A DNA stretch of 64,000 nucleotides from Gloeobacter kilaueensis JS1 (GCF_000484535.1 NC_022600.1:1364001-1428000); one strand, 5' to 3'. Counted from the stretch's first letter, positions 12,551 to 52,447 are shown. Translations and numbers: made by a program. Notes: generated by a model not told the origin, from the letters alone.

Positions 12551-13690
12551 CTACAGGCCAGGGTTGCAGTAGTAGACGCCCTGGACGACGTTGATGGCGG
12601 GCTTGGCAAAAAAGTAAAGGTAAGGCCCGTTGCTGGTAAAGAACACCTGCGGTCTGGCCCGATTTTTGGTCGTCCCGTCGCTGCACTGCCTGTAAAAAGG
12701 AGCGGTCGGGTCGATGCCGGCGATCCAGATGTCCGACGGTTTGCTGCTGCCGGGGGTCGGGTCGCCAATCGTCCCCATGTAGATATACGACTTGCCGTTG
12801 TAGGCAAATACCCCCGGCGAGAGCAGATACGGTCCCTTCGCAGGAGGCACAAGGGTAGTGAGCAGCGCCCAGGCGTTGTTGATATTCTGGTAGACGTTGA
12901 TGCTCGTCTGGTTGCTCACCGCAAAGAGCAGGTAGTTGTCGCCGTACTCGGGAGCCTGCCAGAGCATCGGACTGCTCTTGGGCGGACTGTCGAAGGTGAG
13001 CTGCTGCTGGACTTTTGTATCGATGTTATAAGAAAAGACCTGGGGGACGTTGTTGGCCAGCGCCGTGTAGACGAGGGCGCGCTGACCAGCAATCCAGCTG
13101 ATGTTCTGCACCAGGGTGCCGGGGATCGCGGTCTCGGTGCCTGCGTCGTTGAGGTTGCGCCATTTGCTCGTCGTCTGGCCGCTGCGGGTGGACTGCTGGT
13201 AGAAGATGCGCGGAAAGCCATCGAACTGATCGAGGCTGCCCACCGGAGCGGAGCGGTTGTTGCCGGAGGGCAGGGGATTGGTAAACCACTGGCCGTTGCT
13301 GTTGTAGGCAGAGCCGAGGGCGGCGGTGGCCCCACTGCTGGATGGCAGGGCCGTAAAGACGATCTGGGGGCCGAACTGAGCGGAGTAGACCCAGCGCGGG
13401 CCGATAGCTACCTGATCGGGAGCAAAGAGCGCGCCGGTCGTGACCAGGGTGCCCATACCGGTCGTCGGGTTAAAAGCACCGCTTGTCGGATCGACGAAGC
13501 CAATCCAGACGTTGGCATTTTGATCGGACCAGACAAAGCGCGAGTTGGGCTGGTCGAACTGCAGGTCGGTGATCTTGATGCCAGGAAGCGTGACGAGCAC
13601 ATCGCTGGTGCTCTGGGCCTGGGCGGGCAGAACCGTCAGTGCCGCACACAGGCACAGTGGCAGGGCGAGCTGCCAGTTTGGAAAATGCAT
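12551..13690 (-). CDS. Exported propeller-like protein, paralog 1 of 5
   Basis: A 379-residue protein with a clear signal peptide (cleavage after LPAQAQ, about residue 26) and GGAG 6 bases before its ATG. It belongs to a five-member family in this window. Shared blocks here are VWIGFVDPTSGAFNP, PRIFYQQ, KWRNLNDAGTETAIPG, VFSYNIDTK, WQAPEYGDNY, AYNGKSYIYM, DIWIAGIDPTAPFYRQCSD and a closing YYCNPGL. Regular WI/W-x-N blocks about every 50 residues suggest a beta-propeller, but I do not recognise a named family. It has diverged most at the C-terminus, where the other members read YRADTGLG. Expected location is periplasm or cell surface. Confidence 0.75.
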   Translation of the reverse strand: MHFPNWQLALPLCLCAALTVLPAQAQSTSDVLVTLPGIKITDLQFDQPNSRFVWSDQNANVWIGFVDPTSGAFNPTTGMGTLVTTGALFAPDQVAIGPRWVYSAQFGPQIVFTALPSSSGATAALGSAYNSNGQWFTNPLPSGNNRSAPVGSLDQFDGFPRIFYQQSTRSGQTTSKWRNLNDAGTETAIPGTLVQNISWIAGQRALVYTALANNVPQVFSYNIDTKVQQQLTFDSPPKSSPMLWQAPEYGDNYLLFAVSNQTSINVYQNINNAWALLTTLVPPAKGPYLLSPGVFAYNGKSYIYMGTIGDPTPGSSKPSDIWIAGIDPTAPFYRQCSDGTTKNRARPQVFFTSNGPYLYFFAKPAINVVQGVYYCNPGL

Positions 13691-13700
13691 AAAAGCTCCG

Positions 13701-14879
13701 TTAACGAGGGGCGGAAGAAGAGCGTGCTTGCGAGGGAGCCGTCTGGGGCGGGCCGAGGCCGGTGTCTGCCCGGTACATCTGATAGATCGGATTGGCTCCC
13801 TGGGTGACCACTTGAAAGTATAAGATCTCTGCCTGGCTGGTCGTGAACGCCTTTGGATTTTTGCGCACCTTGAGGGTCGGGTCGCTCACCCGACGATAAA
13901 ACGGCTGGGCCGGATCGACCCCGGCAATCCAGACCTCTGTCGGCACGGTCAGACTTTTTTGATTCTTGCTGGGGGAGGCGACCATGTAGATGTAGGACTT
14001 GCCGTTGTAGACGAAGGGCTGGGGCGACCAGAGGTACTTGCTCGTCGTCGGTGGCGCGAGGGCGGTGACAAACTGCCAGCTACCGCTCTGGTTGTGGTAG
14101 ATGCGAACGCTGAGCTTATCGCTGGTGAGGGTCATCAGGCAGTCGTCGCCTCCGTACTCCGGAGCCTGCCAGATAAAGGCAGAGAGCTTGCCGGGAGCGT
14201 CGAAGGTGATCTGGGTCAGAACGCTCGTATCGATGTTGTAGGTAAAGATCTGGTTGTTGCCGCCAGCGGGCTGGCGGAAGACGACGGCCCGCTCGTTCGG
14301 CACCCAGCGCACCCCCGGAAACTGGGCACCGGGGATGACAAATTGCGCTCCGGAGCTATCGAGGTTGCGCCAGAGCACTAGCTGATTCTCGGTCGTCAGA
14401 TACGAGAGCGCTCCTTTGAGGGCCGGGCTGTCGCTGCCGGTGGGACCGTACTTGTTGGTGCTGTTGGGCAGGGTCTTTGTAACCCAACTTGTGCCGTCGA
14501 ACTGGGCGCTGCCCAGGCTGAAGCGGTTCTGGCTGTCGTAGCGGGTGTAGAGAATAGCAGGGCCAGTGTCGCCGAAGCCGTAGACCGGCCCGTTGCCGAA
14601 GACGAACTCATTGGCAATATTTGTATCGACCAGCACGCCCTGGCCGGAGGGCGGATTGAAGTCGCCCGTGTCCGGATCGATCGTGCCGACCCAGAGCCTG
14701 CCGGACTCATCTCCCCAGGTGAGCTGGTAGTGGCCCTGATCGAAGTCCGGGTCGATCAGGCTCTGGTCCGGGTCGGAGACCAGAACCTCCTGGGCGGAAG
14801 CGGACGGGGTTGCGATCCCGGTCACGGCGGTGAGGAGCAGCGCAGCGACCCATTGCCGAAGCAGGTGCGGAGTTTGCAT
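13701..14879 (-). CDS. Exported propeller-like protein, paralog 2 of 5
   Basis: A 392-residue protein with a signal peptide (AALLLTAVTGIATPSASAQ) and a GAGG ribosome site. Mature start EVLVSDPDQSLIDPDFDQ, then LWVGTIDPDTGDFNPPSGQG, LWRNLDSSGAQFVIPG, IFTYNIDTSVLTQITFD, WQAPEYGGDD, VYNGKSYIYM, EVWIAGVDPAQPFYRRVSDP and KVRKNPKAF, ending YRADTGLG plus a short low-complexity tail (QTAPSQARSSSAPR). It ends 10 bases before the start of paralog 1 on the same strand, so these two arose by tandem duplication and are probably one transcript. Function unknown. Confidence 0.75.
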   Translation of the reverse strand: MQTPHLLRQWVAALLLTAVTGIATPSASAQEVLVSDPDQSLIDPDFDQGHYQLTWGDESGRLWVGTIDPDTGDFNPPSGQGVLVDTNIANEFVFGNGPVYGFGDTGPAILYTRYDSQNRFSLGSAQFDGTSWVTKTLPNSTNKYGPTGSDSPALKGALSYLTTENQLVLWRNLDSSGAQFVIPGAQFPGVRWVPNERAVVFRQPAGGNNQIFTYNIDTSVLTQITFDAPGKLSAFIWQAPEYGGDDCLMTLTSDKLSVRIYHNQSGSWQFVTALAPPTTSKYLWSPQPFVYNGKSYIYMVASPSKNQKSLTVPTEVWIAGVDPAQPFYRRVSDPTLKVRKNPKAFTTSQAEILYFQVVTQGANPIYQMYRADTGLGPPQTAPSQARSSSAPR

Positions 14880-15062
14880 GGGGGAGCCTCAAGGGCCGGG
14901 TTCCAGGGCAACGGAAACAGCCTTCGCAAAAGCAAGACTTTTACCGTTCGCACTGGGCGTTATTCCCCGGCAAAACGCACCCAGACTACCACCACCGATC
15001 GTGCTATTTTGTGTAGCCGCGAGCAATTCTCGAAAATATGCGATCCTTCTCACAGGCGGGTG

Positions 15063-17261
15063 CTATTTGACCTGGAAGTAACTGCTACTTGTGGCCGTGC
15101 CGCCGGGGTTGGTGATCTTCAGCGGGCCGGTGGGAGTGTTCGCCGCGACCGTGGCGGTGATCTGGCTGTCGGATTTGACGGTGAACGAAGCCGCGCTCGT
15201 CCGGCCAACGCTGACGGCGGTGGTGCCGGTAAAGTGGCTGCCGTTGATGGTCACTGCTGTTCCAGCCGGACCGCTGGTAGGCGTGAAGCTGCTGATGGCC
15301 GGGGCGGCGTAGATCTGGAAACTGGAGGCGCTGGTGGTCGAACCGGCAGCGTTGACGACCGTAATCGGTCCACTTTTTGCTCCACTCGGGACGACGACTC
15401 GGACGCTGTTGTTGAACGCTGAGGCAGGCGCAGCAGCGACGCCATTAAAGAGGACGCTGCTTGTCGCTCCGAGGTTGCTGCCGTTGATGGTCACCGAGGT
15501 GCCCACGCCGCCGGAGGGGGGCGAGAAGCTGGTGATGGTGGGGCTATTGACGACGCTGAAGCGAGCGCTGCTGGTGACCGAGGCACCGCCCACCGTGACT
15601 TTGATGGTGCTGGTGCTCACCCCGGCGGGCACCGTCACTGCAATCTGGGTGTCGGAGAGGAAGTTGAAGGCGGCGTAGAGACTGCCGAACTGAACGGAGC
15701 TGACTCCGGTAAAACCGCTGCCTGTGAGGGTGACGGTCGATCCGACCGGCCCACTGGTGGGGCTGAAGCTGCTGAGGGTAGGAAGAACGGTAAAGCCCAG
15801 GGAACTGGTGATCGTGCCGGTGGGTACGGCGACGTTGACGGTGCCGGTGTTCGTTCCGGAACTGACGGTGGCGACGAGCTGGCTGTCGGAGACGACGTTG
15901 AAGGGCACCTTGACGCCGTTGAACTTGACTGCCGTCGCGCTGCTGAGGCCAAAGCCATTCAGGTTGACCGGCGTGCCGACTGCGCCGCTGGTGGGAGAGA
16001 TGGCCGTGAGCCCGGCGGTGACGGTGAAATTTTTGGGAGCCGGAGCGTTGCCGCCGTTGGTGATGAGCAGAACCTGGCCGCTGTTGCCGGTGGCGTTGAT
16101 CGTGGCTGTGACCTGGCTACTGGAGACCTGGCTGAAGGGCACGCTCAGGCCGCCTACAAGCACCGCCCGCGTCCCGCTCAGGTTCTGGCCGCTCAGGGTA
16201 ATCGTCGTACCGACCGGGCCGGTGGTGGGAGCGATGGCTGTGATCTTTGGGGCGGGTGTCAGGGGCAGATCCGAAAGGCAGGCCCAGTTGCGGGCGTAGG
16301 CCAGGTTCGGATCTTGAGCGGGCGCGGAGTGGGGGTCCGCCTCCGGAACGGTGATGAGCAGCCAGTCGTTGTTGGGCGTCGTCTCGCTGGTGGACTGGAC
16401 CATGCCGAGGGTCTTGTAGTTGGTCGTAATCTGGGTGATCGCGTCGTCGCCGATGTGGGACACCCCCTTGAGGCGAGTGGTGGGCGTCTGCCAGGGCAGC
16501 TTGCTGAGCCAGGCAGCGGAGACGGTCTGCGACACGCCCTGGTTGAAGAGCGAGACAGCATCGACCGGTGAAGAGAGAAAACAGACCCGCTCGGTGAGCT
16601 GATCCATCGCGATATAGCCGGCGTGGCCACCGCCCTGGCTGCCGCCCCCGATGCGCACGTGGGACCAATCGACCGTGTTGCCGGCGATTCCTGGCGGGAA
16701 GGGAAAGCCTGCGGGCAGATTCGTCTTCAAAAAGCTGATCAAAGCCGAGAGGCGGTGCATGACACTGTTGGCCTGATTGACGTTTACCAGGGGCGAGGTG
16801 TCGGTGCCGTAGATAATTTCCTGACGAACCTGGCTGTAACAGTTAGTGTCGTTGAGACAGAGCACACCCACTTCGACCGGGTTGGCGTAGGCAAGAGCGA
16901 TCACCAGATAGTTTGCAGAGATGGCCTCCGAGAGGATCTGGCCCGTCGAGAAGCTGTTGCTTACAGGATCGTAGGGCGTGCCAGCTGTGCCCTGCAGGTA
17001 CAGAAGCACCCCCTTGATCTGGCTCGGGTCGCTGGGGATGCCGACGACGTGGTAGCCGAAGCCCTGATCCTCCGGTCCGATATCCTGCATAGCCGGGTCC
17101 GTCTGGCTCGGAACAATAGCGCAGGCAACGCCGCCGGTGATGCTGCCCTGGTCGTAGCTATTGGTCGGACAGACGGCTGTCGAAGCGGCGAGGGCAGGGC
17201 GGGCGAGCACGCCCAAAAAAACACCAAAAAGACTTCCAAAGGCAAGGTGTGCAGCCTTCAT
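15063..17261 (-). CDS. Exported alpha/beta hydrolase-like protein with five IPT/TIG repeats
   Basis: The 732-residue protein has a signal peptide (LFGVFLGVLARPALAAS), an N-terminal domain to about residue 335, and five C-terminal Ig-like IPT/TIG repeats beginning near residues 337, 415, 495, 573 and 650, each with a S/APTSGPVGT-type motif. The N-terminal domain has a nucleophile elbow GGGSQGGGHA (Ser208), a downstream SPVD (Asp234) and a late His311 in EADPHSAPA, together consistent with a serine hydrolase triad; the assignment of Asp and His is inference. TIG repeats usually mediate binding or act as spacers at the cell surface. It sits between secreted paralogs 2 and 3 on the same strand. 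The repeats are also similar at DNA level. Confidence 0.75.
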   Translation of the reverse strand: MKAAHLAFGSLFGVFLGVLARPALAASTAVCPTNSYDQGSITGGVACAIVPSQTDPAMQDIGPEDQGFGYHVVGIPSDPSQIKGVLLYLQGTAGTPYDPVSNSFSTGQILSEAISANYLVIALAYANPVEVGVLCLNDTNCYSQVRQEIIYGTDTSPLVNVNQANSVMHRLSALISFLKTNLPAGFPFPPGIAGNTVDWSHVRIGGGSQGGGHAGYIAMDQLTERVCFLSSPVDAVSLFNQGVSQTVSAAWLSKLPWQTPTTRLKGVSHIGDDAITQITTNYKTLGMVQSTSETTPNNDWLLITVPEADPHSAPAQDPNLAYARNWACLSDLPLTPAPKITAIAPTTGPVGTTITLSGQNLSGTRAVLVGGLSVPFSQVSSSQVTATINATGNSGQVLLITNGGNAPAPKNFTVTAGLTAISPTSGAVGTPVNLNGFGLSSATAVKFNGVKVPFNVVSDSQLVATVSSGTNTGTVNVAVPTGTITSSLGFTVLPTLSSFSPTSGPVGSTVTLTGSGFTGVSSVQFGSLYAAFNFLSDTQIAVTVPAGVSTSTIKVTVGGASVTSSARFSVVNSPTITSFSPPSGGVGTSVTINGSNLGATSSVLFNGVAAAPASAFNNSVRVVVPSGAKSGPITVVNAAGSTTSASSFQIYAAPAISSFTPTSGPAGTAVTINGSHFTGTTAVSVGRTSAASFTVKSDSQITATVAANTPTGPLKITNPGGTATSSSYFQVK

Positions 17262-17449
17262 ACGATTGATTACCCCTACTTGGCTCTCGAGTTCAACGGT
17301 ACGGTTGACGCGCGCAGCAGAACCACCACCGGGCGGACAGAGTGTGCCTGTCCGCCTGGCTAGCCGGGGGAATCAGCTGCAGAGTACCAGGATGGGTATC
17401 CGGTTGAATGCAGCGCAGATCACAAACTGAAGGAAGTCACAGGAAAGTC

Positions 17450-18592
17450 CTACGGACTGCCCAGGCCGGTGTCTGCCCGGAAGATCGCCTTTTGATAACC
17501 GACCGGTTCCAGAAAATAGATAAAAGGCCCGCTCGCGGCAATGAATACCTCCGGATCGCGGCGCACCTTTACTGTCTGGTCGCTCACCTGACGGTAGAAG
17601 GGCAGCTCCGGGTCGATCCCAGCAATCCAGACATCGGTGGGCGCGGTGGCATCCTGGGGGTTCGGCGAGTCGGAGGTGAGCATAAAGATATAGGATTTGC
17701 CGTTGTAGATAAAATTTTCGGCTGAAGAAAGATAATGGCGCGGCGAAGGCGGCTGGAGGGTGTTGATCCGCCGCCAGCTGCCCGCGACGTTGCGGTAGAC
17801 GCCGATCGCCGTGCCATCGACGATCGCAAAGCAGACGTAGTCGTTGTCAAATTCTGGTGCCCGCCACATAAAGGGGGTGCTCTTGTTGCCATCGTCGCTG
17901 CTCACCTGGACCGTCGTGGCGGTGTCGATAAAAAATTCGTATATCTGCTGCGTACCTTTGCTCTTGCGCGGATAGACGACGGCGCGCTCCCCTGCGACCC
18001 AGCTGCCGCCGGGGGGCGAGAGGCCAGGAATCACCCGCTCCGTTGCCGGTCTTGCGATCTCCCGCCACATGGCAACCGGTTGGCCGTTGCGGTTGGTACC
18101 GGCGTAGAGAATGCGCGGGGCCGGGTCTGCCGGATCTTTGCTGCCGATGGGGCCGAGGCGATTGCTGCTATTGGCGAGCAGGGTGCTGCTCCAGTTGGTG
18201 CCATCGAAGCTCGCAACCGCGAGCGCCGTCTGGCCGGTTGAATTGTATTTTGTATAGGCGATCTGGGAGCTATTGCCCAGCGCCCACTCCGGCCCATTGC
18301 CCAGGTGATTCTGGCCAATCGGGACGACGCCGGTATCGAGGAGCAGGCTCTGGCCAGAATTGGGCAAAAAATCGCCCGTCTGCGGATCGACTCTGCCCAG
18401 CCAGAGGTTGCCCGCCTGGTCCTCCCAGCTGAACTGGGCGTTCTGCTGGTCAAATTCTTCGTCGTTGACCAGAAAGGCCGGGTCGGAGACCAGCACGTCT
18501 TGAGCGCTGTCGGCGATCGCTACGCTGGAGAGCACCAGTGTCAGCAGGGCAAGACAACCGGCTGCGATGCGATACAGGCGCGCATGGGGCAT
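17450..18592 (-). CDS. Exported propeller-like protein, paralog 3 of 5
   Basis: About 380 residues from the ATG at 18592, preceded by AGGAG seven bases upstream; a longer frame reaches 18616. Signal peptide IAAGCLALLTLVLSSVAIADS. Mature protein starts QDVLVSDPAFLVNDEEFDQ. Shared blocks: LWLGRVDPQTGDFLPNSGQ, LGNGPEWALG, GPIGSKDPADPAPRILYAG, WRAPEFDNDYVCFAI, IGVYRNVAGSWRRINTLQPP, IYNGKSYIFM, PTDVWIAGIDPELPFYRQVS, KVRRDPEVFI and a final FRADTGLG. It is separated from the TIG hydrolase by 188 bases. Function unknown; likely periplasmic or surface-exposed. Confidence 0.75.
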   Translation of the reverse strand: MPHARLYRIAAGCLALLTLVLSSVAIADSAQDVLVSDPAFLVNDEEFDQQNAQFSWEDQAGNLWLGRVDPQTGDFLPNSGQSLLLDTGVVPIGQNHLGNGPEWALGNSSQIAYTKYNSTGQTALAVASFDGTNWSSTLLANSSNRLGPIGSKDPADPAPRILYAGTNRNGQPVAMWREIARPATERVIPGLSPPGGSWVAGERAVVYPRKSKGTQQIYEFFIDTATTVQVSSDDGNKSTPFMWRAPEFDNDYVCFAIVDGTAIGVYRNVAGSWRRINTLQPPSPRHYLSSAENFIYNGKSYIFMLTSDSPNPQDATAPTDVWIAGIDPELPFYRQVSDQTVKVRRDPEVFIAASGPFIYFLEPVGYQKAIFRADTGLGSP

Positions 18593-18674
18593 GGGGGGAC
18601 TCCTGGGCGGATGCACCGGTTTTCAGCCCAGGATGCCCCTGTCTGGAGGGCACCCTGGGCGCAATAAAGGGGTC

Positions 18675-19922
18675 CTAAGAACCTGGAATGACGGGCGTCG
18701 CCTTCCAGACGGCGGGCAGTTGTCCGGAGACCGCCGGGGCATTGTAGTAGACTACCGGCCCCTGGGTAGTGATAAATACTTCCGGATCCTTGCGGACATT
18801 TGGGGTAGTGTCGCTCACCATCTGAAAAAACGGGGCCGCCGGATCGAGGGTGGCAATCCAGATTTCTGTCGGGTCGGTGCCGTTCAGGTTGTCCGGGTTC
18901 GGGGAGACTACCGCCGAAAAGTAAGACTTGTTTTTATAGAACCAGGGTTCCGGCGAAGCGATGTACTTGTTGGTGGAGGGGACCTGGATGTTGTTGACGA
19001 GCGTCCAGACGCCGTTCGTCTGCCGGTAGACCTCCATCGTGCTGTAGGTGGCGGTGGGGCCAGGCGGGTTGCCCTGGCAGGTGACCATCATCGTGTAGTC
19101 GTTGTTGAATTCTGGAGCCTGGAAGATCCAGGGGCTGTCCTTGTTGCAGGGGGTGTTGGTGAGGATTGTGAGTTGTTTGGTATCGACGTTGTAGGTCGCC
19201 ACCTGCCGGAAGCCTGAGCGCACGTCGATCGTGGTAAAGACCATCGCCCGCTGGCCAGGAATCCAGCGGCCACCAGTGTTGAGCTGGCCTGGCACCTGCT
19301 CGTCGGTGGTGGCGTCGAGGTTGCGCCAGTAAAGGGCGGTGCCCCGTCCGCGCACCGCATCCGGCCCAAGATACAGGAGCCGGGGCGAGGCATCGTTGAC
19401 GTCTTTGCTCGGAATCGGCAATTCTCTGCCGGCGGAGTTGGCGAGAAATCCGGAAACCCAGGTGCTGCCATTTTTGTAGGCGCGTCCGAGGACCTTTTTG
19501 CCGTTTTTGTTGACGGCGGTCCAGACCAGCTGGGGGCCGTAGCTGCCGCCGTAGAGCCACTCGGAGCCGTTGCCAATTGCCGGTACCGGCAGGGCGGTGC
19601 CAGTGCCGTCTACCAGCGTGACCTGACCGCTGGGTGGCACGAGATTGCCAGTATTGGGATCGACGCCGCCAATCCAGACGAAGCCCGACTGATCGATATA
19701 AGTCTGCCGGGCACCGAGCTGGTCGTACTCGTTGTCCTCGATCGGAATACTGGGGTTGCTGACGACGACGTTGGGAATACCAGTCTGGGCCCGACCGGGT
19801 GAACTCAGCACCAGGGCGGCGAGCAGCGCAAGGGGCAGTGAAAGAAATGTAGCAAGCCGGAAGGAACCGGTTTTAAGCGGCGGAACGAGGGACTTCCGCC
19901 AGGAAGTGGGTTGAGGTGTCAT
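18675..19922 (-). CDS. Exported propeller-like protein, paralog 4 of 5
   Basis: About 415 residues from the ATG at 19922. The frame is open to 20111, but the shorter start places a proper signal peptide (LATFLSLPLALLAALVLSSP, cleavage near GRAQ) close to the N-terminus. Blocks shared with the other members: VVVSNPSIPIEDNEYDQ, VWIGGVDPNTGNLVPPSGQ, IGNGSEWLYG, PRLLYLGPD, LYWRNLDATTDEQVPG, TYNVDTKQLTIL, FQAPEFNNDY, PTEIWIATLDPAAPFFQMVS and NVRKDPEVFI. It lacks the final YRADTGLG and ends WKATPVIPGS. It is divergent from the SBBP-repeat gene. Function unknown. Confidence 0.75.
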   Translation of the reverse strand: MTPQPTSWRKSLVPPLKTGSFRLATFLSLPLALLAALVLSSPGRAQTGIPNVVVSNPSIPIEDNEYDQLGARQTYIDQSGFVWIGGVDPNTGNLVPPSGQVTLVDGTGTALPVPAIGNGSEWLYGGSYGPQLVWTAVNKNGKKVLGRAYKNGSTWVSGFLANSAGRELPIPSKDVNDASPRLLYLGPDAVRGRGTALYWRNLDATTDEQVPGQLNTGGRWIPGQRAMVFTTIDVRSGFRQVATYNVDTKQLTILTNTPCNKDSPWIFQAPEFNNDYTMMVTCQGNPPGPTATYSTMEVYRQTNGVWTLVNNIQVPSTNKYIASPEPWFYKNKSYFSAVVSPNPDNLNGTDPTEIWIATLDPAAPFFQMVSDTTPNVRKDPEVFITTQGPVVYYNAPAVSGQLPAVWKATPVIPGS

Positions 19923-20140
19923 GGGGGATTTACCGGGGGTAGTGGAGGGCAGCAGGAGCACATACAGCTTTAGACTGCAGTGCGGTGACCGCAAACAAGT
20001 ATAGCAGTCCTCCGGTAAGTATACTGTGCCTGGCTTCATTCGCAAAATCGTGGTCAAGGCTACAAAAAACTGGCAATCAGGCGGTACCATGTACATCAAC
20101 GTTCTCTGCATCCAGGTTCTTCGACCTGGGATCGCAAGGA

Positions 20141-22240
20141 ATGGTCATACGCTTCCTGCCATTGCCTATGTCCTTCCCCCGCTTCCGCTCGTTCGTCTGG
20201 CTTATGCTTCCTGCCCTGCTGGCCGCTGCTGCGCCCGCTGAAACGCTCCCGATTGCAAATCCTTACGCTCGCCTGCCCCTCAGCTTCGAACCCAATGTCG
20301 GTCAGAGCGACGCTTCTGTGCATTTTGTTGCGCATCAGGGCAACGGCAGCCTGCTGCTTACGCCCGCCGGAGCCTACGTGGCCTTGCATAAAAAATCTTC
20401 TAACCCGGCTGAGAGCAGCACGCGCTCCCTCGTGCGGCTGGCTTTTGTCGGGGCGGACCAGCGGGCTGTCCTGCGCGGTGTGGATCGTCTCCCTGGCCGG
20501 GTCAACTATCTGATGGGCAGCGATCCGCTGGGCTGGCGCACTGGCGTTCCGACCTACCGCCGCGTAGAGGCAAAGGATCTGTATCCGGGCATCGACGTGG
20601 CCTACTACGGCAGGGACCGCCAGTTTGAATACGACCTGCTGGTGGCGGCGGGGGCGGATCCGGCGGCGATCCGGCTGCAGGTCGATGGAGCACAAAGCCT
20701 GTCGATCGATCCTGGGGGCGGGCTTATCATCCGGACGGCGGCGGGCGCGTTGCGCCAGGCACCGCCTGTGGTCTATCAGCTCATCGATAGCAAACGCCGG
20801 TCGGTAGATGGCCGCTACGTCCTGCTCGATCGCCGGACGGTCGCTTTTGCGATCGGCGCTTACGATCGACGCCGGTCGCTAATCATCGATCCGACGCTGA
20901 GCTATGCCACGCTGCTGGGCGGCAGCGGCGGGGACTACGGCGCGGCGATCGCCGCCGACAGTACCGGCAACCTCTACGCGACGGGCTTTACCGACTCCGT
21001 CGATTTTCGGACGCTCAACCCGCTACAGGCAGGACTTGCGGGCAACAGCGATGTCTTCGTCACCAAGTTCAATACCAGCGGCAACGCGCTCGTCTACTCC
21101 ACTTACCTGGGCGGCAGCAACAACGACTACCCCGCCGCGCTCCGCATCGATGGCAGCGGCAACGCCTACGTTGTGGGCTACACCAATTCGACCAACTTCC
21201 CGGTGGCGAACGCTCTTCGATCGACCCTCGCCGGCAACAACGACGCCTTTGTGAGCAAGCTGAACGCCAGCGGCAGCGCGCTTGTCTACTCGACCTACCT
21301 GGGTGGCAGCAGCAACGACATCGCCACCGGTCTGGCCGTTGCCAGTTCGGGCAACCTCTACGTCACCGGTTACACCCTCTCCAGCGATTTTCCGCTCCTC
21401 AAGCCCCTCCAGAGCGTCTACGGCGGTGGAGCCTACGACGCTTTTGTCACCAAGTTCAACGCTGCCGGTAATACCCTCGCCTACTCCACCTACCTGGGCG
21501 GCAGCGGCACCGACTTTGCCAGTGGGATCGCCGTCGATAGCAAGGGCAACGCCTACCTCACCGGCTACACCACCTCCAGCAATTTTCCGGTGGTGGGTGC
21601 CTTCCAGCCCAGCCTCAAGGGTGGCTTCGACGGGTTCGTGAGCAAATTGAACGCCGCCGGTTCAGCTCTGGCCTACTCGACCTACCTGGGCGGCAGCAAG
21701 GGCGATTTCAGCACCGCCATCGCCGTCGGCAGCTCCGGCGATATCTTCGTCACCGGCTACACCGCCTCCACCGATTTTCCAAGAGCCAATGCTTTTCAAA
21801 GCCTGCTCAAAGGCGACCAAAACGCTTTTTTGACCAAGCTCGATGCTGCCGGGACGAGCCTGTCCTACTCGACCTACCTGGGGGGCAGCCGCAGCGAATA
21901 CAGCTACGCCCTGGCGGTCGATAGCAAAGGCAACGCCGTGGTGAGCGGGCTTACCACATCTACGGATTTCCCGACTCTGAGCGCCCTGCAGGCGGGCTAC
22001 AGCGGTGGTCTAGCGGACGCTTTTGTCACCAAATTCAACGCCGTGGGCAGCGCTGTGCAGTACTCGACCTACCTGGGGGGCGGCAGCGAGGACTACAGCT
22101 ACGGCCTTGCCATCGACGGTGCCGACAACACCTACGTCGCCGGTTTTACCTACTCCGCCAACTTCCCGACCACCGCCGGGGCCGTGCAGCAGACACCGGC
22201 TGGGGAGGCGGACGGGTTCTTTCTCAAGATCGGGCCGTGA
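20141..22240 (+). CDS. Exported SBBP-repeat beta-propeller protein
   Basis: About 699 residues from ATG 20141 (alternatives: GTG 19985 and ATG 20168). After a signal peptide (SFVWLMLPALLAAAAPAE) comes an N-terminal domain of roughly 230 residues beginning LPLSFEPNVGQSDASVHF, which usually precedes SBBP repeats. Then follow seven repeats of about 57 residues, each starting with YSTYLGGS or a variant and containing GNxYVTGYTxSxDFP. SBBP repeats are predicted to fold as a beta-propeller. The repeats are also evident in the DNA. The stop codon overlaps the next gene's ATG (TGATG), so it is likely coupled to paralog 5. Probable role: surface binding or adhesion; this is inference. Confidence 0.85.
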   Translation: MVIRFLPLPMSFPRFRSFVWLMLPALLAAAAPAETLPIANPYARLPLSFEPNVGQSDASVHFVAHQGNGSLLLTPAGAYVALHKKSSNPAESSTRSLVRLAFVGADQRAVLRGVDRLPGRVNYLMGSDPLGWRTGVPTYRRVEAKDLYPGIDVAYYGRDRQFEYDLLVAAGADPAAIRLQVDGAQSLSIDPGGGLIIRTAAGALRQAPPVVYQLIDSKRRSVDGRYVLLDRRTVAFAIGAYDRRRSLIIDPTLSYATLLGGSGGDYGAAIAADSTGNLYATGFTDSVDFRTLNPLQAGLAGNSDVFVTKFNTSGNALVYSTYLGGSNNDYPAALRIDGSGNAYVVGYTNSTNFPVANALRSTLAGNNDAFVSKLNASGSALVYSTYLGGSSNDIATGLAVASSGNLYVTGYTLSSDFPLLKPLQSVYGGGAYDAFVTKFNAAGNTLAYSTYLGGSGTDFASGIAVDSKGNAYLTGYTTSSNFPVVGAFQPSLKGGFDGFVSKLNAAGSALAYSTYLGGSKGDFSTAIAVGSSGDIFVTGYTASTDFPRANAFQSLLKGDQNAFLTKLDAAGTSLSYSTYLGGSRSEYSYALAVDSKGNAVVSGLTTSTDFPTLSALQAGYSGGLADAFVTKFNAVGSAVQYSTYLGGGSEDYSYGLAIDGADNTYVAGFTYSANFPTTAGAVQQTPAGEADGFFLKIGP

Positions 22241-23472
22241 TGGAGGCGATTTTCACAGTGATGAATCTAAGACTTGCTCCTCCAGGTAGGCGCTGGGCGC
22301 TTCTTGCAGGTTCTGCCCTGGCGGTGCTCGGAGTGTTGCCCCAGACGGCGCTGGCCCAGAGCTGTTCGCCCTGGACAGCCCCTCCCAACGTCATCGTCTC
22401 CGACACGACCGTTCCCGTCTACGACGCCGAATTTGCCCAAAACGACAACCGCTTTGTTTGGGCAGACGCGGTGGGCACCGTCTGGATCGGCAGGGTCGAT
22501 CCGGCCCTGGGAAGCTGGCTACCGGCGAGTGGGCAGTTCACGCAGGTGACAACCGGTGCGCTCTCGGTGCCCAATACCTCCGGCAACGGCCCCGATTGGG
22601 TCTACAGCCAGCCGTACGGCCACCAGCTTGCAATCACCACTCAAAATGGCAGCGCCGCCCGTGGGCTGGGCAAGGTCTACTTCGACGGCACCAGCTGGCA
22701 GAAGCTCCTCCTCACCAAGGGGCAATCCCGGCAGTTGCCCATCGGCAGCAAGGACGAAAACGATCCACTGCCGCGCATCCTCTACCTGGGACCGCTCAAA
22801 AATCCGCCCCCCGGCTCGACCGGCACCCAGACGCTCTACTGGCGCTACCTCGACGATTACACCTCCGAGCAGATCCTGCCGGGAGTGCTTACCGGTGCCG
22901 GGCGCTGGGTCAAAGGCCGGCGCTCGCTGGTCTATTCGGCCATCGATCTGACAAACAACCTGCGCCAGATCTTCGAGTACGACATCGACACCAGTACCGC
23001 CACCCGACTCACCTCCGATCCGGGCAACAAGGTCAACCCCTGGATGTTTCAGGCACCCGAATTTAACAACGAGTACGTCTTTTTTGAGATCAGCGACTAC
23101 ACGACGATCGGCGTCTACCGCAACATCGCCGGGCGCTGGACGCAGATCGCGACGGTCAAGCCGCCCTCGATCGGCACCTACATCGCCTCCGCCGATCCGT
23201 TCGTCTACGATGGCCGCTCCTACATCTCGATGGTCACCTCCACCAACTCCGACAACCAGAACAAGACCGCCCCGACGGACATCTGGATTGCGAGCATCGA
23301 CGGCAGCTTCTACCGCCAGGTGAGCAATCCGACCACCGGCATCCGCAAGAACCCCCACGTCTACATCACGAGCCAGGGGCCGTTCGTCTACTTCAACGCC
23401 AAGGTCAACACCGGCGGAACGACCGCCTACTACCGCGCCGACTCCGGACTTTTAAGCTGTCCACCCCCTTGA
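22240..23472 (+). CDS. Exported propeller-like protein, paralog 5 of 5
   Basis: About 410 residues from ATG 22240, which overlaps the upstream stop as TGATG; ATG 22261 with GGAGG upstream is an alternative. Signal peptide WALLAGSALAVLGVLPQTALAQ. Family blocks: NVIVSDTTVPVYDAEFAQ, VWIGRVDPALGSWLPASGQ, LPIGSKDENDPLPRILYLG, LYWRYLDDYTSEQILPG, FEYDIDTSTATRLTSD, FQAPEFNNEY, IGVYRNIAGRWTQIATVKPP, APTDIWIASID and YRADSGLLSC. It is the only member on the plus strand, separated from paralog 4 by the SBBP gene, so the expansion spans an inverted block. Function unknown. Confidence 0.75.
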   Translation: MEAIFTVMNLRLAPPGRRWALLAGSALAVLGVLPQTALAQSCSPWTAPPNVIVSDTTVPVYDAEFAQNDNRFVWADAVGTVWIGRVDPALGSWLPASGQFTQVTTGALSVPNTSGNGPDWVYSQPYGHQLAITTQNGSAARGLGKVYFDGTSWQKLLLTKGQSRQLPIGSKDENDPLPRILYLGPLKNPPPGSTGTQTLYWRYLDDYTSEQILPGVLTGAGRWVKGRRSLVYSAIDLTNNLRQIFEYDIDTSTATRLTSDPGNKVNPWMFQAPEFNNEYVFFEISDYTTIGVYRNIAGRWTQIATVKPPSIGTYIASADPFVYDGRSYISMVTSTNSDNQNKTAPTDIWIASIDGSFYRQVSNPTTGIRKNPHVYITSQGPFVYFNAKVNTGGTTAYYRADSGLLSCPPP

Positions 23473-23503
23473 AGCCTTCTTCCCTCGTTGAGGTCGTTGT
23501 TCG

Positions 23504-24727
23504 ATGTCAATCCAGATCGATGTAAAAAGAGGCGTTGCCCGGCTGGGTCTGGCAGCCAGTGTGCTGCTGGCCAGCGGCGGCGGAGCAGGGGCTGCCACCC
23601 TCAGCACCCTTTATACCTTCAGCGGCACCACCCAGAGCAGCGTGGGCGGAGCCGTTCCCTACGGGACACCGGTGCAGGCGAGCAACGGCAACCTCTTTGG
23701 CACCACCTATATCGGCGGCAGTACGGCGAGCACTCTGCCGCTGTGCCCCGCCGGTTGCGGCACGGTCTTTGCGATCACCCCCGCCGGCAGCCTCACGATC
23801 GTGAAATTGTTTGGCGGCAGCGACGGCGCTTTTCCCTACACCGGTGTGGTGGGCAACAACGGTTCGCTCTATGGCACCACCAGCGGCGGCGGCACCTACC
23901 GCTACGGCACGGTCTACAGGATCTCCTCCACGGGCGTGTTCAGTTCGCTCTACTCATTTATGGGTGGCCCAGCGGGGGGCTACGGCGGCAGCGACGGTGC
24001 CTTCCCGAATGCTGCCCTGGTGCTCGCAGACGACGGCAACTTTTATGGCACGACCGCCGGCGGCGGGCTGGGCAACCTGGGCACCGTCTTTCAGATCACC
24101 CCTGCGGGTGTGCTCACGACCCTCTATTCCTTCAGCGGCCCCGACGGCACCAACCCGGTCGCCGGACTGACAGCAGGCAGCGATGGCCGCCTCTACGGCA
24201 CGACCGCTGCCGGAGGAGCCTCCGGGCGCGGCACGGTCTTTGCGATCACGACGGGCGGCGCGCTGACGACCCTTTATTCTTTTGGCGGCGCGGACGGTGC
24301 CTATCCCAAGGGCGGACTGGCAGCAGGCAGCGACGGCAACTTTTACGGCACGACCGTAGGCGGCGGTGTCAACGCCCTGGGCACCGTCTACCGGATCAGC
24401 CCTGCCGGCAGCCTCACCAGCCTGTATTCGTTTGCCGGTCCCGACGGCATCGCTCCCCTCGCCGGTCTCGTAGCGGGCAGCGACGGCAGCTTCTACGGTG
24501 CGACCTACGCCGGCGGCACGGTCAACGCCAGCTGCACCAACGGCTGCGGCACTCTTTTTCGGATCACTCCCGCAGGCAGCCTGAGCACCCTCTACGCCTT
24601 CAGCGGCGGCAGCGATGGCCGCAATCCCGCCACCCGCCTGGTGCAGGGAGGCAACGGCAGCTTCTTTGGCACGACGCCCCTCGGTGGGGCGAACGGCGTC
24701 GGGACAATCTACAAGCTCCAGCCTTGA
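23504..24727 (+). CDS. Exported GloVer (Gloeobacter/Verrucomicrobia) tandem-repeat protein
   Basis: A 407-residue protein with a signal-like start (GLAASVLLASGGGAGAAT) and seven repeats of about 45-60 residues with the pattern GSDGNFYGTT..GG...GTVF.I(T/S)PAG.LTTLYSF. This is the repeat called Gloeo_Verruco or GloVer, found in exported proteins that are sometimes anchored to the envelope. No C-terminal anchor is visible here; the protein ends soon after the last repeat. Start ATG 23504 follows paralog 5 by 31 bases, so SBBP, paralog 5 and this gene look like one operon. Fold is probably a propeller or solenoid; the role is unknown. Confidence 0.88.
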   Translation: MSIQIDVKRGVARLGLAASVLLASGGGAGAATLSTLYTFSGTTQSSVGGAVPYGTPVQASNGNLFGTTYIGGSTASTLPLCPAGCGTVFAITPAGSLTIVKLFGGSDGAFPYTGVVGNNGSLYGTTSGGGTYRYGTVYRISSTGVFSSLYSFMGGPAGGYGGSDGAFPNAALVLADDGNFYGTTAGGGLGNLGTVFQITPAGVLTTLYSFSGPDGTNPVAGLTAGSDGRLYGTTAAGGASGRGTVFAITTGGALTTLYSFGGADGAYPKGGLAAGSDGNFYGTTVGGGVNALGTVYRISPAGSLTSLYSFAGPDGIAPLAGLVAGSDGSFYGATYAGGTVNASCTNGCGTLFRITPAGSLSTLYAFSGGSDGRNPATRLVQGGNGSFFGTTPLGGANGVGTIYKLQP

Positions 24728-26163: not shown

Positions 26164-27714
26164 TCAGGGGGCGATGAGTCCCGGCAGGGTTCTGGTCTTT
26201 TCGATCTGTACCGCCTTCAGGGCGTTCGGGTCGAGGCCGAGGGCCCGGAGGATCGTCGGGGCGATCTGGGCGGTCTGCACAGGCGTCTTGATCGTGGCGG
26301 CGCTCAGGCGCGGGTTGGAGACGAGCAGGGCGACGCCAGTATCGTTGGCACCAAAACCGCCGTGCTCGGCAATTTTGCTGGTGCTGCCGGTGTAGATGAC
26401 GCCGAGGGTGGGCTGCACAACAATGTCCGGGGTGCGGCTATCGGTCGTCGGATCGTTAAATTGCAGCTGGAGCAATTGCCCGGCGAGGATCTGCTCGATA
26501 CCGGCCTGGGTCTGGTTGGCGCTGAGGGTGCTTACCGCCTGGGGGGTCTGGGAAGAACTGGTCAGCCACAACAGCGAGATGTCGTCCTCGGTTGCCTGGG
26601 CGACCGTGCTGCCCAAAAGCCCGGCTGGATCGGCGATGCCAGTGTTAAAAGTCTGCAGTTTTGTCGGGTCGATGGGCGTCTGGCCGTGCTTGGCGCTCAC
26701 GATAATCAGCGTCGAGGCGAGCAGACCGCGCTTTTTGAGGGCGCTCACCATCTTGCCCACCGACTGGTCGGTGTGGGCGAGGGCGTCGGCGAGGGCCGGG
26801 CCGGGGGTGCCCTGGCCATCGAGGTAGCCCCCCTGTTCGGACTGGCCGCTCAGCGTCGGGGAGGTGGGCAGTTTCTGGCCGACGCTCACCGCCTGAAAGT
26901 TCATGCCAAACAGGGCCGGCACCGCCGCCCGCTGCGTGCCTGCCGCATTTTTGCCTGCGATCTGGTTGAGGAGGGCCTGGACTTTAAGATCGTCGTAAAT
27001 CTCGGTGCAGGCGACGCTCTTGGTGATGCTCGCAGGCAGAGGCGGCGTGCAGATGGGCGTCACCCCATCGTCGAAGGTGGTGGCGGCGATCTCCGGGGTA
27101 TAGAGGTCGTCTACGCCCTGGCCCGAAGGACCGTTGACAAGATCGTAGGCGAGGTGCTTGTCGGACCAGGCGGTGCGCAGACCGGCGGCTTTTATGACCT
27201 CGAAGACCGTGTTCACCCGCAGGTAGCTGTGGGGAAACACCGGCGAGCAGCCGTGGGCCGGGTCGCGGGGCAGAGCGGCGGTGTTGATGCCGCCGCCGCC
27301 GCCCAGGAGATTGGAATTGATGTCCACCGTCTCGTCGTAGAGGACTTCGGTGCCACTGGAGGCACAGGCGGTATCTGTGGGAGCGGAGAGCTTGCGGTCG
27401 TAGGAATCGTCGTAGAAGACGCCGGTCGAGACGGGCGAGCCGCCGGTGACCATCGCGAGCAGCCCCGGAAACGAATCGGACGGCCTGGAAGCAGAGGCGG
27501 CGCTGAAGGTCACACCGGCTGCGCTCAGACCCGCCAGGGCGGATTGGGGATTGTTCTGGACGTAGTTGGCTAAATCGATGGCGTGCAGGCCGTCGATGCT
27601 CAACAGCAACACTCTTTGAAAATGGCGACCGGCGGCATTTGTTGCCGCCTGAGCCGGGCTCGCGGCAAGCAGGGCAACCAGGCTAAAGGTACAGGCAAAT
27701 TTTTGAACGTTCAT
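26164..27714 (-). CDS. Exported type I phosphodiesterase/nucleotide pyrophosphatase-like enzyme
   Basis: About 516 residues from ATG 27714 (the frame is open to 27810; ATG 27726 is another option). Signal peptide TFSLVALLAASPAQA. The start of the mature protein, RVLLLSIDGLHAIDLANY, is the first metal site of the alkaline-phosphatase superfamily. SRPSDSFPGLLAMVTGGSP supplies the nucleophile region (Ser/Thr). WSDKHLAYDL and SAKHGQTPID (metal-binding Asp/His) and AEHGGFGANDTGVALLVSNP complete the metal ligands. It probably hydrolyses phosphodiesters or phosphoesters in the periplasm; the substrate is unknown. Its upstream region faces the divergent glcD. Confidence 0.8.
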   Translation of the reverse strand: MNVQKFACTFSLVALLAASPAQAATNAAGRHFQRVLLLSIDGLHAIDLANYVQNNPQSALAGLSAAGVTFSAASASRPSDSFPGLLAMVTGGSPVSTGVFYDDSYDRKLSAPTDTACASSGTEVLYDETVDINSNLLGGGGGINTAALPRDPAHGCSPVFPHSYLRVNTVFEVIKAAGLRTAWSDKHLAYDLVNGPSGQGVDDLYTPEIAATTFDDGVTPICTPPLPASITKSVACTEIYDDLKVQALLNQIAGKNAAGTQRAAVPALFGMNFQAVSVGQKLPTSPTLSGQSEQGGYLDGQGTPGPALADALAHTDQSVGKMVSALKKRGLLASTLIIVSAKHGQTPIDPTKLQTFNTGIADPAGLLGSTVAQATEDDISLLWLTSSSQTPQAVSTLSANQTQAGIEQILAGQLLQLQFNDPTTDSRTPDIVVQPTLGVIYTGSTSKIAEHGGFGANDTGVALLVSNPRLSAATIKTPVQTAQIAPTILRALGLDPNALKAVQIEKTRTLPGLIAP

Positions 27715-27909
27715 CGCTTCGCGCATAACTGTGCGGCAGCACGATAAAGGTTCGGTGTGGCGCGAAGGCAACCCCGGCGTGACAGGACGTGTCGGGAAGG
27801 TTAATCGCAAGTTAAGAGTTGGCTACCCCAACAGCACGGTGGAACAGCAGAGCCTGGCCTTTTCGCCTTGATCTACACTGAAGCCATCGTCCTTTGCTGG
27901 TTCGCTTCG

Positions 27910-34823: not shown

Positions 34824-36563
34824 CTAGTAGCGGGTGCCCGTCGTCCGAAAGTGAACGGCGGTGCGGCCATTGGCGTCGAGAACATCGCCTCCCTCGGCGA
34901 CGCAGTAGACCAGCCAGTGATCGCCGCACTCCATGCGCTCGGCCACCTGGCACTCGATGTAGGCCAGGGCGTCGGTGAGGATGGGTGAGCCGTTGGCTGC
35001 CACGCGGGTGGAGACGCCCACGAAGCGGTCTTCACCGGGGCCGAAGGGCTTGAGAAAGTGTTTCATCAGGCCCAGGTACCGCTCCTCCGCCAGGATATTG
35101 AGCACAAAGTTCTGGCCTGGATACATCAGCGATTCGATGGCGCGGTCCTTGGCGACGGCGACGGTGAGGCCGGGCGGGTTGAAGGTGGCCTGGGAGACCC
35201 AGGAGGCGAGCATGGCGCTGCTGGTGTCCTCCTCGCGGGCGGTGACGACGCAGAGCGAGCCGACGATCCGGCCCACCGCCTGCTCTACCGGGGTAGCGGC
35301 AGCCGGTACCCGTCCCTGGCGCGCCTTGCGGGTTTTTTTAAGGGCCTGGGCAAAATCGATTCCGGCTTCCTCGCACTCCTGGAGGGTGGCGGCGGTGGGC
35401 TTGAACTTGACGCGGATGGGCTCGAAGCCAAAGCTGTATCCGGCGTTGCGCAATTTGTTCTCCAGCAGGTCGATCGCTTCGCCGCTCCAGCCAAAGGAAC
35501 CGAAGACACCCGCCAGTTGCGCTTTGGGAGCGGTGGCGAGCACGATGCCCAGGGCGGTCTGGATCGGGGTGGGAGCGTGGCCGCCCAGGGTGGGAGAGCC
35601 AATCAAAAAGCCGTCGGTGCGGCTCACCACCTCGCGGATCTCCTCCGGGGTGGCGTGCTCGCAGTTGATTGTCTCGACGGCCACTCCGGCTTTGGTGATG
35701 CCGTGGGCGAGCGCCTGGGCGAGGGTGGCCGTGCTGCCGTAGGCCGAGGCAAAGAGCAACGCCACGCTCAGCGTCTGCTCGATCTGCCCCCGGTTCCATT
35801 CGCGGTAGTAGGCAATCAGATCCAGGCCGCCGGAGCGCAGCAGCGGACCGTGGACCGGAGCGATCGCCCTGGCGGGCCACTCCGCCAGCCGATCGAGCAC
35901 CGCCTCGACCTGGCGGACCTGATTGGCCATCAAGCAGTCGTAGTAGTAGCGGCTGTCTTCGCTGTAGCGGCTGCCGCTGTCGTCGAAGACCGGGGTATCG
36001 GCGACGTGGGCACCGAAGAACTTGTCGGTAAAAAGCATGGCTGTGCGCTCGTCGAACACGCACAGTCCTTCCGGCCAGCGCGGGGTCGGGGTGGGGATGA
36101 ACTGCAGCAGGCGGCCTCCGCCCAGATCCAGCGCTTCCTGGCCGCGCACCACCTGGATCTGCACCGTGAGGCCGGGCGCTTCGCTCTCGATGAGCGAGCG
36201 CAGCGCAATCGCCCCCGGATTGGAGCAGACCACCGCCACGTTCGGAATGCGCTCGACAAGGGCGACCAGGGTCTTGAAGCGGTTCGGGTTGATGTGGCCG
36301 AGCACGATATAGTCGATGTCGCCCAGCGGGATCAACCGCTCCAGTTCGGCGAGAAACAGCGCCGTGAACGTCTCACCCGGCGGGGTGAGCAGGACCGTCT
36401 TCTCGCCGCGCAGCAAAAAGGCGTTGGAGGTAGTGCCGTGCTGACGGGCGTACTCGACCTCGAACTTGAGGCGCACAAAGCTGCGGGAGCGCAAAAACCA
36501 GGTCTCAGGGGCAATCGCGATCGTCTGGATGTCGCGCACGGGAGCGGCGGGCGTGGTCGTCAT
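34824..36563 (-). CDS. flv1: Flavodiiron protein Flv1-type (degenerate diiron site)
   Basis: A 579-residue cyanobacterial flavodiiron protein with beta-lactamase-like, flavodoxin-like and C-terminal flavin reductase domains (the last from about residue 410: PVEQAVGRIVGSLCVVTARE, SAMLASWVSQATFNPPG). The normal iron-binding motif HxExDH is replaced by HINPNR (residues 90-95), and the next histidine position reads PRWPEG instead of LHWPD. Such loss is typical of Flv1/Flv2, which work as heterodimers with Flv3/Flv4 in light-driven reduction of oxygen to water. It starts 15 bases after flv3, forming one operon. Confidence 0.9.
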   Translation of the reverse strand: MTTTPAAPVRDIQTIAIAPETWFLRSRSFVRLKFEVEYARQHGTTSNAFLLRGEKTVLLTPPGETFTALFLAELERLIPLGDIDYIVLGHINPNRFKTLVALVERIPNVAVVCSNPGAIALRSLIESEAPGLTVQIQVVRGQEALDLGGGRLLQFIPTPTPRWPEGLCVFDERTAMLFTDKFFGAHVADTPVFDDSGSRYSEDSRYYYDCLMANQVRQVEAVLDRLAEWPARAIAPVHGPLLRSGGLDLIAYYREWNRGQIEQTLSVALLFASAYGSTATLAQALAHGITKAGVAVETINCEHATPEEIREVVSRTDGFLIGSPTLGGHAPTPIQTALGIVLATAPKAQLAGVFGSFGWSGEAIDLLENKLRNAGYSFGFEPIRVKFKPTAATLQECEEAGIDFAQALKKTRKARQGRVPAAATPVEQAVGRIVGSLCVVTAREEDTSSAMLASWVSQATFNPPGLTVAVAKDRAIESLMYPGQNFVLNILAEERYLGLMKHFLKPFGPGEDRFVGVSTRVAANGSPILTDALAYIECQVAERMECGDHWLVYCVAEGGDVLDANGRTAVHFRTTGTRY

Positions 36564-41812: not shown

Positions 41813-42286
41813 ATGTTTCAGAAATTGTTACCCGCCGGTCGCTTTCTCATCCTCATCGCCGTCGCCGGCACGATGGCTGCAACGATAGCCTTGCTTGTCT
41901 ACGGCATTGTCCAGGCAGCCCAGTTGATCGTCGGCGCTTTCGGTGCCGGTATGGTCTCAGCCAAAGGTCTCAAGGGGCTGGCTCTCGGCTTTATCGAGGT
42001 CGTAGACCTCTTCTTGCTGGGCACCGTTTTTTATATCGTTGCCCTTGGTCTGTACGAATTATTTATCGGCGAAATCGCTGTACCCAGGTGGCTGGTAATC
42101 ACCAGCCTGGACGATCTGAAAAGCAAGCTTGTGAGCGTCGTCATCGTTATCCTGGCCATTCTCTTTTTGGGCCAGGTGGTCAGTTGGGATGGTGAACGCA
42201 ACTTACTGCCCTACGGAGGATCAATCGCCCTGGTTATCGCTGCGCTGACCTATTTTCTAAGCCAGAAAGCCAACAAGTCACCTTAG
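41813..42286 (+). CDS. YqhA (UPF0114) family membrane protein
   Basis: About 157 residues from ATG 41813; the frame is open from 41771. Three to four membrane helices are evident (FLILIAVAGTMAATIALLVY, GLALGFIEVVDLFLLGTVFY, LVSVVIVILAILFLGQVV), with the family stretch EVVDLFLLGTVFYIVALGLY and the link ITSLDDLKSKLVSVV. The biological role of the family is unknown. It follows the antiporter gene after 197 bases and is probably transcribed on its own. Confidence 0.85.
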   Translation: MFQKLLPAGRFLILIAVAGTMAATIALLVYGIVQAAQLIVGAFGAGMVSAKGLKGLALGFIEVVDLFLLGTVFYIVALGLYELFIGEIAVPRWLVITSLDDLKSKLVSVVIVILAILFLGQVVSWDGERNLLPYGGSIALVIAALTYFLSQKANKSP

Positions 42287-42355
42287 CACTTGCAGCCTCT
42301 GTTACAATAATAGAGATAAAATCGCTCGTCAAATACAGCTCGATTTCAAATGTTA

Positions 42356-43189
42356 CTACTCTGGAACAATCGGTTGCTGTGGATCAGCCCCAAGACTAAT
42401 ATAATCTAATCGCCACGGCTTTATTAGCACGAATTGACGATAGGACAGTGCTTCCTCTGACACAACCTCAAGATAGCGAAGCTCAATATCTTTCCACTGA
42501 CCTGACTTTGGATCGCGTAACTTTTCAAAAGCGCTCTGAATAGCTGCTCTAGCTGTACCTGCAGCCTTCTCAGATTCCTCAGAATCGGGCTCGATCGAGT
42601 ACAGCAGGGTGATACCCAGTTCGTACACATCGTCTGGTTCCACTTTTACTTCTTCCCTGCCTTCATCCACATCAAACAAGACGGCAATGATTTTAGTACC
42701 GTGAGGTTTTACAGCTTTAGCGATGCGCTCGTCGAGTTTGGCTGCACGTAGACGCCGCTCGAACTCATCTGGAAACGCCGAACGGCGGTACCTGGCCGCA
42801 AGCCAGCGCTGAAAGACTGACCTGTTCGAGTCGGATAATTGATAGTTAGTTTCCGGCTGCAGATCAGCGAATCTGTTCTTTTCAAGGCTGTGTTTATCAA
42901 GAGACGAAAATTCAGCAAAAAGAGGCGGGTTGCCATCAAACTGAATATGTAGAGTACGAGCATTCTTTGCATAGGTGTAGTTCCCATCCAGCTTTGCAAT
43001 GCGGCGGCCCATCACAACCTCAACGTATGGCTCAACGCTCGGATGTTGGGCGAGGTCGCAGTCGTGAGTTGCAACCACAACAACCATCTCTTCTGAGTCT
43101 TTTGAATGCGAGAGCCCCAGACTTTGCCAAGCCCCATCCGCCAATAGCTGCCCCTGACGCCATGGCGTTTCCCTGGTCCATTCGGCCAT
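42356..43189 (-). CDS. Hypothetical protein with THDCDL motif, third gene of a low-GC module
   Basis: A 277-residue soluble protein. Near the start is VVVVATHDCDLAQHP (residues 37-51), a conserved-looking His/Asp/Cys cluster that could bind a metal or be catalytic. Later parts are charged and mixed alpha/beta (IIAVLFDVDEGREEVKVEPD, FVLIKPWRLDYISLG). I do not recognise a named domain. It follows the helix-turn-helix gene by 9 bases and ends the three-gene unit. GC content is visibly lower than in flanking genes, a sign of transfer. Confidence 0.7.
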   Translation of the reverse strand: MAEWTRETPWRQGQLLADGAWQSLGLSHSKDSEEMVVVVATHDCDLAQHPSVEPYVEVVMGRRIAKLDGNYTYAKNARTLHIQFDGNPPLFAEFSSLDKHSLEKNRFADLQPETNYQLSDSNRSVFQRWLAARYRRSAFPDEFERRLRAAKLDERIAKAVKPHGTKIIAVLFDVDEGREEVKVEPDDVYELGITLLYSIEPDSEESEKAAGTARAAIQSAFEKLRDPKSGQWKDIELRYLEVVSEEALSYRQFVLIKPWRLDYISLGADPQQPIVPE

Positions 43190-43198
43190 GGCGACAAG

Positions 43199-43819: not shown

Positions 43820-43838
43820 GTACCTACCTAGATTTTAT

Positions 43839-44612: not shown

Positions 44613-44678
44613 CTTGCTGCCCATTGCAGAGACACCTGCAAAAGTTTACACCCAGGTTGACATCTTAGCTTTTTAGAA

Positions 44679-44696: not shown

Positions 44697-44730
44697 GAGG
44701 CCGGAGCGTGCGTCGTCCATGAGGATTTTC

Positions 44731-52411: not shown

Positions 52412-52447
52412 ATTGCGGCGAAGGTGGTGTTTGATGAAGCGACCTGC

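Follow-up and report, generated by a model that had tools for sequence, protein, structure and literature searches.

The cluster and its gene products

The stretch of DNA considered here, a 64,000-nucleotide window of the closed genome (4,724,791 bases) of Gloeobacter kilaueensis JS1 (NC_022600.1:1364001-1428000), carries between positions 12551 and 24727 a cluster of eight genes for apparently exported proteins, five of which encode members of a single family of predicted beta-propellers. All eight open reading frames (ORFs) are present, in two runs that diverge from an intergenic region at 19923-20140. The minus-strand run comprises propeller copy 4 (18675..19922; 415 residues from its likelier start at 19922), copy 3 (17450..18592; 380 residues from the likelier start at 18592, which has AGGAG upstream, within an ORF that begins at 18616), an alpha/beta-hydrolase gene (15063..17261), copy 2 (13701..14879; 392 residues) and copy 1 (12551..13690; 379 residues, with a signal peptide), the last two separated by 10 bases. 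The plus-strand run begins with a 699-residue protein of the DUF7948 and SBBP propeller-repeat type (20141..22240 from the likelier start; PF25778, E 4e-60, 204 bits; PF06739, E 2e-57, 191 bits, seven stretches), continues through a TGATG overlap at 22238-22242 into propeller copy 5 (22240..23472; 410 residues) and, after a gap of 31 bases, ends with a GloVer (Gloeo_Verruco) tandem-repeat protein (23504..24727; TIGR03803, 342 bits against a cut-off of 44, eight stretches). The hydrolase belongs to the BPSS1187 family (NF047580, 160 bits against a cut-off of 125) and carries the nucleophile motif GGGSQGGGHAG followed by five TIG repeats (PF01833, five stretches). Just outside the cluster, an exported protein of the phosphodiesterase/alkaline phosphatase superfamily (26164..27810, minus strand; PF01663, E 6e-21) is a possible further member.

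Every one of the eight products has a hydrophobic stretch at its N-terminus, followed in most by an AxA-type cleavage site, and none has a lipobox; as read from these signals, all eight are exported. The search for promoter-like matches across the cluster returned one, a sigma-70-like match near the divergent region (20045-20018, minus strand), a number no greater than in shuffled sequence. Guanine-plus-cytosine (GC) content is flat at 0.61-0.63, so that the term "island" is best taken to mean a gene cluster rather than foreign DNA; the reading as a foreign island was rejected on this ground, and no signs of insertion were found, without an in-depth search for them.

The five propeller paralogs align end to end, with 32-40% identity to the first and 55 invariant columns. 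An earlier note on this DNA had proposed, from the sequence alone, five exported and uncharacterised proteins with a common order of sequence blocks, tightly spaced and interleaved with TIG hydrolase-like, SBBP and GloVer proteins. The alignment bears out the block order, the weakest copy (12551) deviating in some motifs (VTLP in place of VSDP, for example), and the export signals, spacing and interleaving hold as well. The number five is right for the cluster and falls short for the genome, which has 13 members. The absence of any established family also stands: against Pfam and NCBIfam none of the five has a match above curated cut-off, TolB and F-box propellers being the sole hints, and a literature search found no paper on the family.

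Predicted fold and closest known structures

Structure prediction gives the five proteins one shared fold rather than unrelated ones, the outcome on which the note had let its proposal depend. The AlphaFold2 model of copy 3, built on a 23-row alignment, has a predicted local distance difference test score (pLDDT) of 91.3 and a predicted template modelling score (pTM) of 0.86, and consists of seven four-stranded blades, with an N-terminal strand (residues 40-42) placed so as to close the last blade, a velcro closure as judged from strand order. We thus regard the five as predicted exported seven-bladed beta-propellers of one real, undescribed family, the fold itself being known.

Among known structures TolB of the Tol-Pal system, likewise exported, is ranked first by Foldseek (E 2e-8) and is the sole match when a profile of 23 relatives is compared with the PDB (Acinetobacter TolB, 7mx5; E 2e-8, spanning about two blades). 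However, TolB has six blades and an N-terminal alpha/beta domain, whereas the family has seven blades and a first strand that begins at residue 40, directly behind the signal peptide; the best score of any member with the TolB model TIGR02800 is 12.4 bits against a cut-off of 343. By VIA-align the highest Z, 23, is shared by the lectins PLL, PHL, CV39L and BP39L, which are also single seven-bladed domains of similar size, but structural identity is 10-13%, no sequence kinship was found, and the conserved positions of the family are mainly an acidic ring. The propellers of S9 peptidases (prolyl oligopeptidase, acylaminoacyl peptidase) follow with Z 21, and the polysaccharide lyases PL22, PL25 and PL27 and the glycoside hydrolase GH145 with Z about 20. 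Since propellers resemble one another, these values indicate fold and not function. The SBBP/DUF7948 and GloVer proteins share the cluster with the family and are separate sequence families with models of their own.

Recurrent pairing with secreted esterases

The genome's sole BPSS1187 gene lies beside family genes in G. kilaueensis itself (15063; the nucleophile motif GxSQGGGHA, with its serine, is invariant), in G325 and in G327; loci with this arrangement include those of a Burkholderiales bin (L053) and a Prochloron-labelled bin (L049). Three congeners keep a conserved block in which two BPSS1187 hydrolases and two sulfatases bearing the formylglycine motif CCPSR accompany a family propeller, an SBBP-like propeller and FG-GAP/TIG proteins; at other loci BD-FAE-type or PHB-depolymerase-type esterases stand beside the family. 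Counted genome by genome, with near cases read by hand from tables and after exclusion of the fragmented G008 and of two near-identical congeners, G002 and G003, a BPSS1187, BD-FAE or Esterase_PHB match (NF047580, PF20434, PF10503) stands within 6 kb of a propeller gene in 11 of 18 genomes, where 1.16 would be expected; the P value (2e-10) is too small, because the esterase families were picked after their neighbourhoods had been inspected. In two Verrucomicrobia the pairing is covalent, hydrolase and then family propeller forming one protein (G328, L054; G329, L134), and in G007 an SBBP domain is fused to the family (L071). Of three loci found after the idea had formed, two conform to it: on a Hymenobacter plasmid a BD-FAE esterase of the lipoprotein type stands side by side with three family propellers, of which one ends in a type IX secretion system (T9SS) sorting tail, and with an SBBP-like T9SS protein, and in the verrucomicrobial G1110 a BD-FAE gene directly adjoins a family gene. 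The link between these propellers and esterases is, so far as we know, new, and it can be tested.

Several observations stand beside these loci. The BPSS1187 profile matched cutinase at E 0.03 and acetyl xylan esterase at E 0.6, too weakly to name a substrate; in the literature BPSS1187 figures as a polymerase chain reaction target for melioidosis. A Cyanaurora locus (L112, 4517-11863) encodes a pair of BPSS1187 hydrolases that each carry 7-8 TIG repeats; they are similar to gene 15063 and lie away from the propeller family. Four loci (L049, L042, L046 and L053) have in common a small ORF and carry HlyD, methyltransferase, SDR or sulfotransferase genes, a composition reminiscent of biosynthetic clusters, with an ACP-NoeE-like protein in L049; a connection with lipid or polyketide export is possible. 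Long arginine-rich frames in L046 and L053 were disregarded as probable shadow frames. The combination of RTX repeats with two family propellers in L049 raised the idea of an alkylating propeller similar to CylK, which is a fusion of a calcium-binding domain and a propeller (PMC8916777), but no CylK sequence match was found. In the Hymenobacter locus the T9SS-tailed propeller is split into two annotated ORFs with a four-base overlap (L123, 12465-13888), owing to a frameshift or a sequencing error.

Given a propeller close to TolB and S9-type folds, an alpha/beta-hydrolase as partner, and fusions of the two, the propeller might serve the hydrolase in trans as a lid or gate, the part that the TolB-like propeller of S9 peptidases of the prolyl oligopeptidase type plays in cis. 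We consider this very unlikely. The family occurs in separate genes or in fusions whose order, hydrolase and then propeller, is the reverse of that in S9 peptidases; its chain stops at the seventh blade, and none of the five has a Peptidase_S9 match. Further, the partner hydrolases are esterase types drawn from several families, a spread that speaks against a fitted lid. The model of the fused L054 protein, computed from a shallow alignment, reaches a pTM of 0.56, with domains of fair confidence and linkers of low confidence; this is weak evidence, yet more in keeping with an enzyme that carries its accessory domain on a tether than with a rigid S9-type gate.

A second alternative is that the propellers are surface adhesion or scaffold proteins and that the hydrolases are incidental neighbours within a cluster of exported proteins. 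The clustering with SBBP, GloVer, FG-GAP and TIG proteins, the T9SS tail and lipoproteins of Hymenobacter, and the multi-propeller chains of Verrucomicrobia would all suit such a role. Among these chains, a single frame of 1479 residues contains three family propellers with spacers of about 85 residues (L132, 7286-11725). We nonetheless judge it improbable, as the window proteins have no evident anchor and the esterase association, fusions included, is far above expectation. The earlier note had suggested a surface system, with adhesion, scaffolding or polymer capture as examples. An extracellular site is indeed plausible in light of the Hymenobacter T9SS tail and two lipoprotein-like relatives, but no finding speaks specifically for adhesion or scaffolding; the recurrent partners, secreted esterases with sulfatases added in the congeners, favor the binding of a polymer for its processing.

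The inner ring and a proposed role for the propellers

In most blades the innermost strand opens with an xPE[FW]-like motif (DxEF, NGPEW, APEF, SPEPF, RxDPE). The seven equivalent positions, one per blade and here called the ring, are residues 54, 110, 159, 205, 255, 300 and 356 of the 388-residue ORF. In a set of 70 family sequences the ring reads E-E-S-R-E-E-E in 42 and E-E-T-R-E-E-E in 8 more; D52, G108 and S298 are invariant, R352 is 97% conserved, and no histidine reaches 60% conservation. Nearly invariant across phyla, the ring is eroded in three of the five cluster copies. It is intact in copy 4, reads E-E-S-S-E-E-E in the modelled copy 3, is altered to E-D-S-R-E-D-H in copy 5, and is degenerate in copies 1 (Q-R-S-S-E-G-Q) and 2 (D-V-S-R-E-Q-K). 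At least three changes are found only in this genome, namely in copies 1, 2 and 5 and in a fourth protein encoded elsewhere in it (L058; E-T-G-Q-E-E-K).

Seven conserved polar positions at the starts of innermost strands recall, as is generally known, the placing of active sites in propeller enzymes, of which sulfatases and esterases are also the usual companions. The propellers might therefore be polysaccharide lyases or glycosidases in their own right, the Glu/Arg ring serving as an active or metal site and the esterases and sulfatases removing decorations; the presence of PL22, PL25, PL27 and GH145 among the fold neighbours, and a likely polysaccharide context, are in keeping with this. Known lyases and metalloenzymes of the fold, however, mostly use His or Tyr/His, whereas the family conserves some tyrosines and no histidine. 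It has no sequence match to these enzymes or to any CAZy-type Pfam family, and loss of the ring glutamates in three of five copies would be tolerated more easily in binding proteins. An enzymatic role for the propeller is accordingly a minority possibility in our estimation.

The account we favor, tentatively and as the leading one of those considered, is that the family propellers are ligand-binding accessory proteins of a secreted esterase/sulfatase set that acts on an extracellular polymer. In the manner of lectins or carbohydrate-binding modules, they would bring or hold secreted alpha/beta-hydrolase esterases at the polymer, and the esterases, joined in congeners by sulfatases, would trim or degrade this esterified and perhaps sulfated material. 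Binding would take place at the mouth of the central channel, where the ring of Glu/Ser/Arg residues that head the seven innermost strands would make up the site, and duplication followed by loss of ring residues within the G. kilaueensis genome may have changed ligand specificity from one copy to another. Sulfatases, several kinds of esterase and the L054 model together make a ligand-binding propeller the simplest account. A number of observations weigh against it. The ring is placed at the channel mouth by analogy with other propellers, and the L054 model shows no contact between its domains. Seven of the 18 genomes lack such an esterase nearby, as do most solitary Gloeobacter copies, and the third later locus (G1033) encodes a triple family propeller with no esterase in the 16 kb examined. 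Moreover, esterase families vary by lineage, and the window pairs five propellers with a single hydrolase, an odd proportion.

Distribution and history

The family has 13 copies in G. kilaueensis and 7 to 9 in each of three congeners, one in G007, where the SBBP fusion occurs, and eight in Cyanaurora (G008), some of these being pieces at contig ends; in congeners and in Hymenobacter, SBBP proteins adjoin it. About 290 other cyanobacteria yielded no copy. Three even-handed samples from outside the cyanobacteria, each of which included a genome known beforehand as a carrier, returned it in a single one of 399 Burkholderiales genomes (Rubrivivax, the carrier already known; a second match is weak), in 3 of 289 Verrucomicrobia and in 3 of 387 genomes of one verrucomicrobial order. 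It also occurs in Ideonella species, in a Lysobacter, in a Chromatiaceae bin, in the Prochloron-labelled bin and on the Hymenobacter plasmid. These counts and scattered carriers describe a family that is rare and patchy across four phyla. In the congener G002 one copy is split over two frames (L072, 7251-8614), either as a pseudogene or through an assembly error.

In a tree built from the 70 sequences, copies from the window cluster with others of their own genome or, loosely, with those of congeners, and no one-to-one orthologs of the five were found in the congeners; the other three Gloeobacter genomes, by contrast, share clean sets of orthologs with one another. The copies of Proteobacteria make up one main clade, nested in the Gloeobacter-rich part, and a further small group is placed with a Gloeobacter copy at 97% support; this pattern suggests transfer between lineages. 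DNA comparison puts the cluster's flanks in G001 at 900, 3265 and 3964 kb, and in G002 and G003 they are likewise scattered. The reading as a conserved island was thus rejected: tree and scattered flanks alike indicate a lineage-specific assembly arising from independent expansion. With regard to co-conservation, relatives do not keep the exact gene set, but they do keep a different cluster of the same kinds of gene.

Gloeobacter is an early-branching, thylakoid-free cyanobacterial lineage, and the family is large and exported there, while none of the other cyanobacteria sampled has it. That the pairing recurs in Verrucomicrobia, Burkholderiales and Bacteroidota suggests a portable means of steering secreted esterases to a polymer. 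More speculatively, and with a good deal less confidence than in the accessory role itself, the ring may be the ligand site of an unnamed family that forms the targeting part of secreted esterase/sulfatase systems in four phyla, with 13 diversified copies in one Gloeobacter that possibly act on its own or its neighbors' sheath. For proteins hitherto hypothetical, the immediate gain is a predicted fold, a seven-position ring signature and a partner enzyme that can be tested.

Other features of the window

Elsewhere in the window, a MobA/MobL relaxase gene (53839-54717) lies inside a stretch of low GC content (52001-56000; 0.46-0.53 against 0.61) that is likely a remnant of a plasmid or integrative element. 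Two adjacent flavodiiron-type proteins with ODP, flavodoxin and flavin-reductase domains (34824-36563 and 36579-38336) are probably paired cyanobacterial Flv proteins. A second low-GC stretch (42001-46212; 0.50 at 42-44 kb) contains three ORFs without a Pfam match, beside a DNA photolyase gene.

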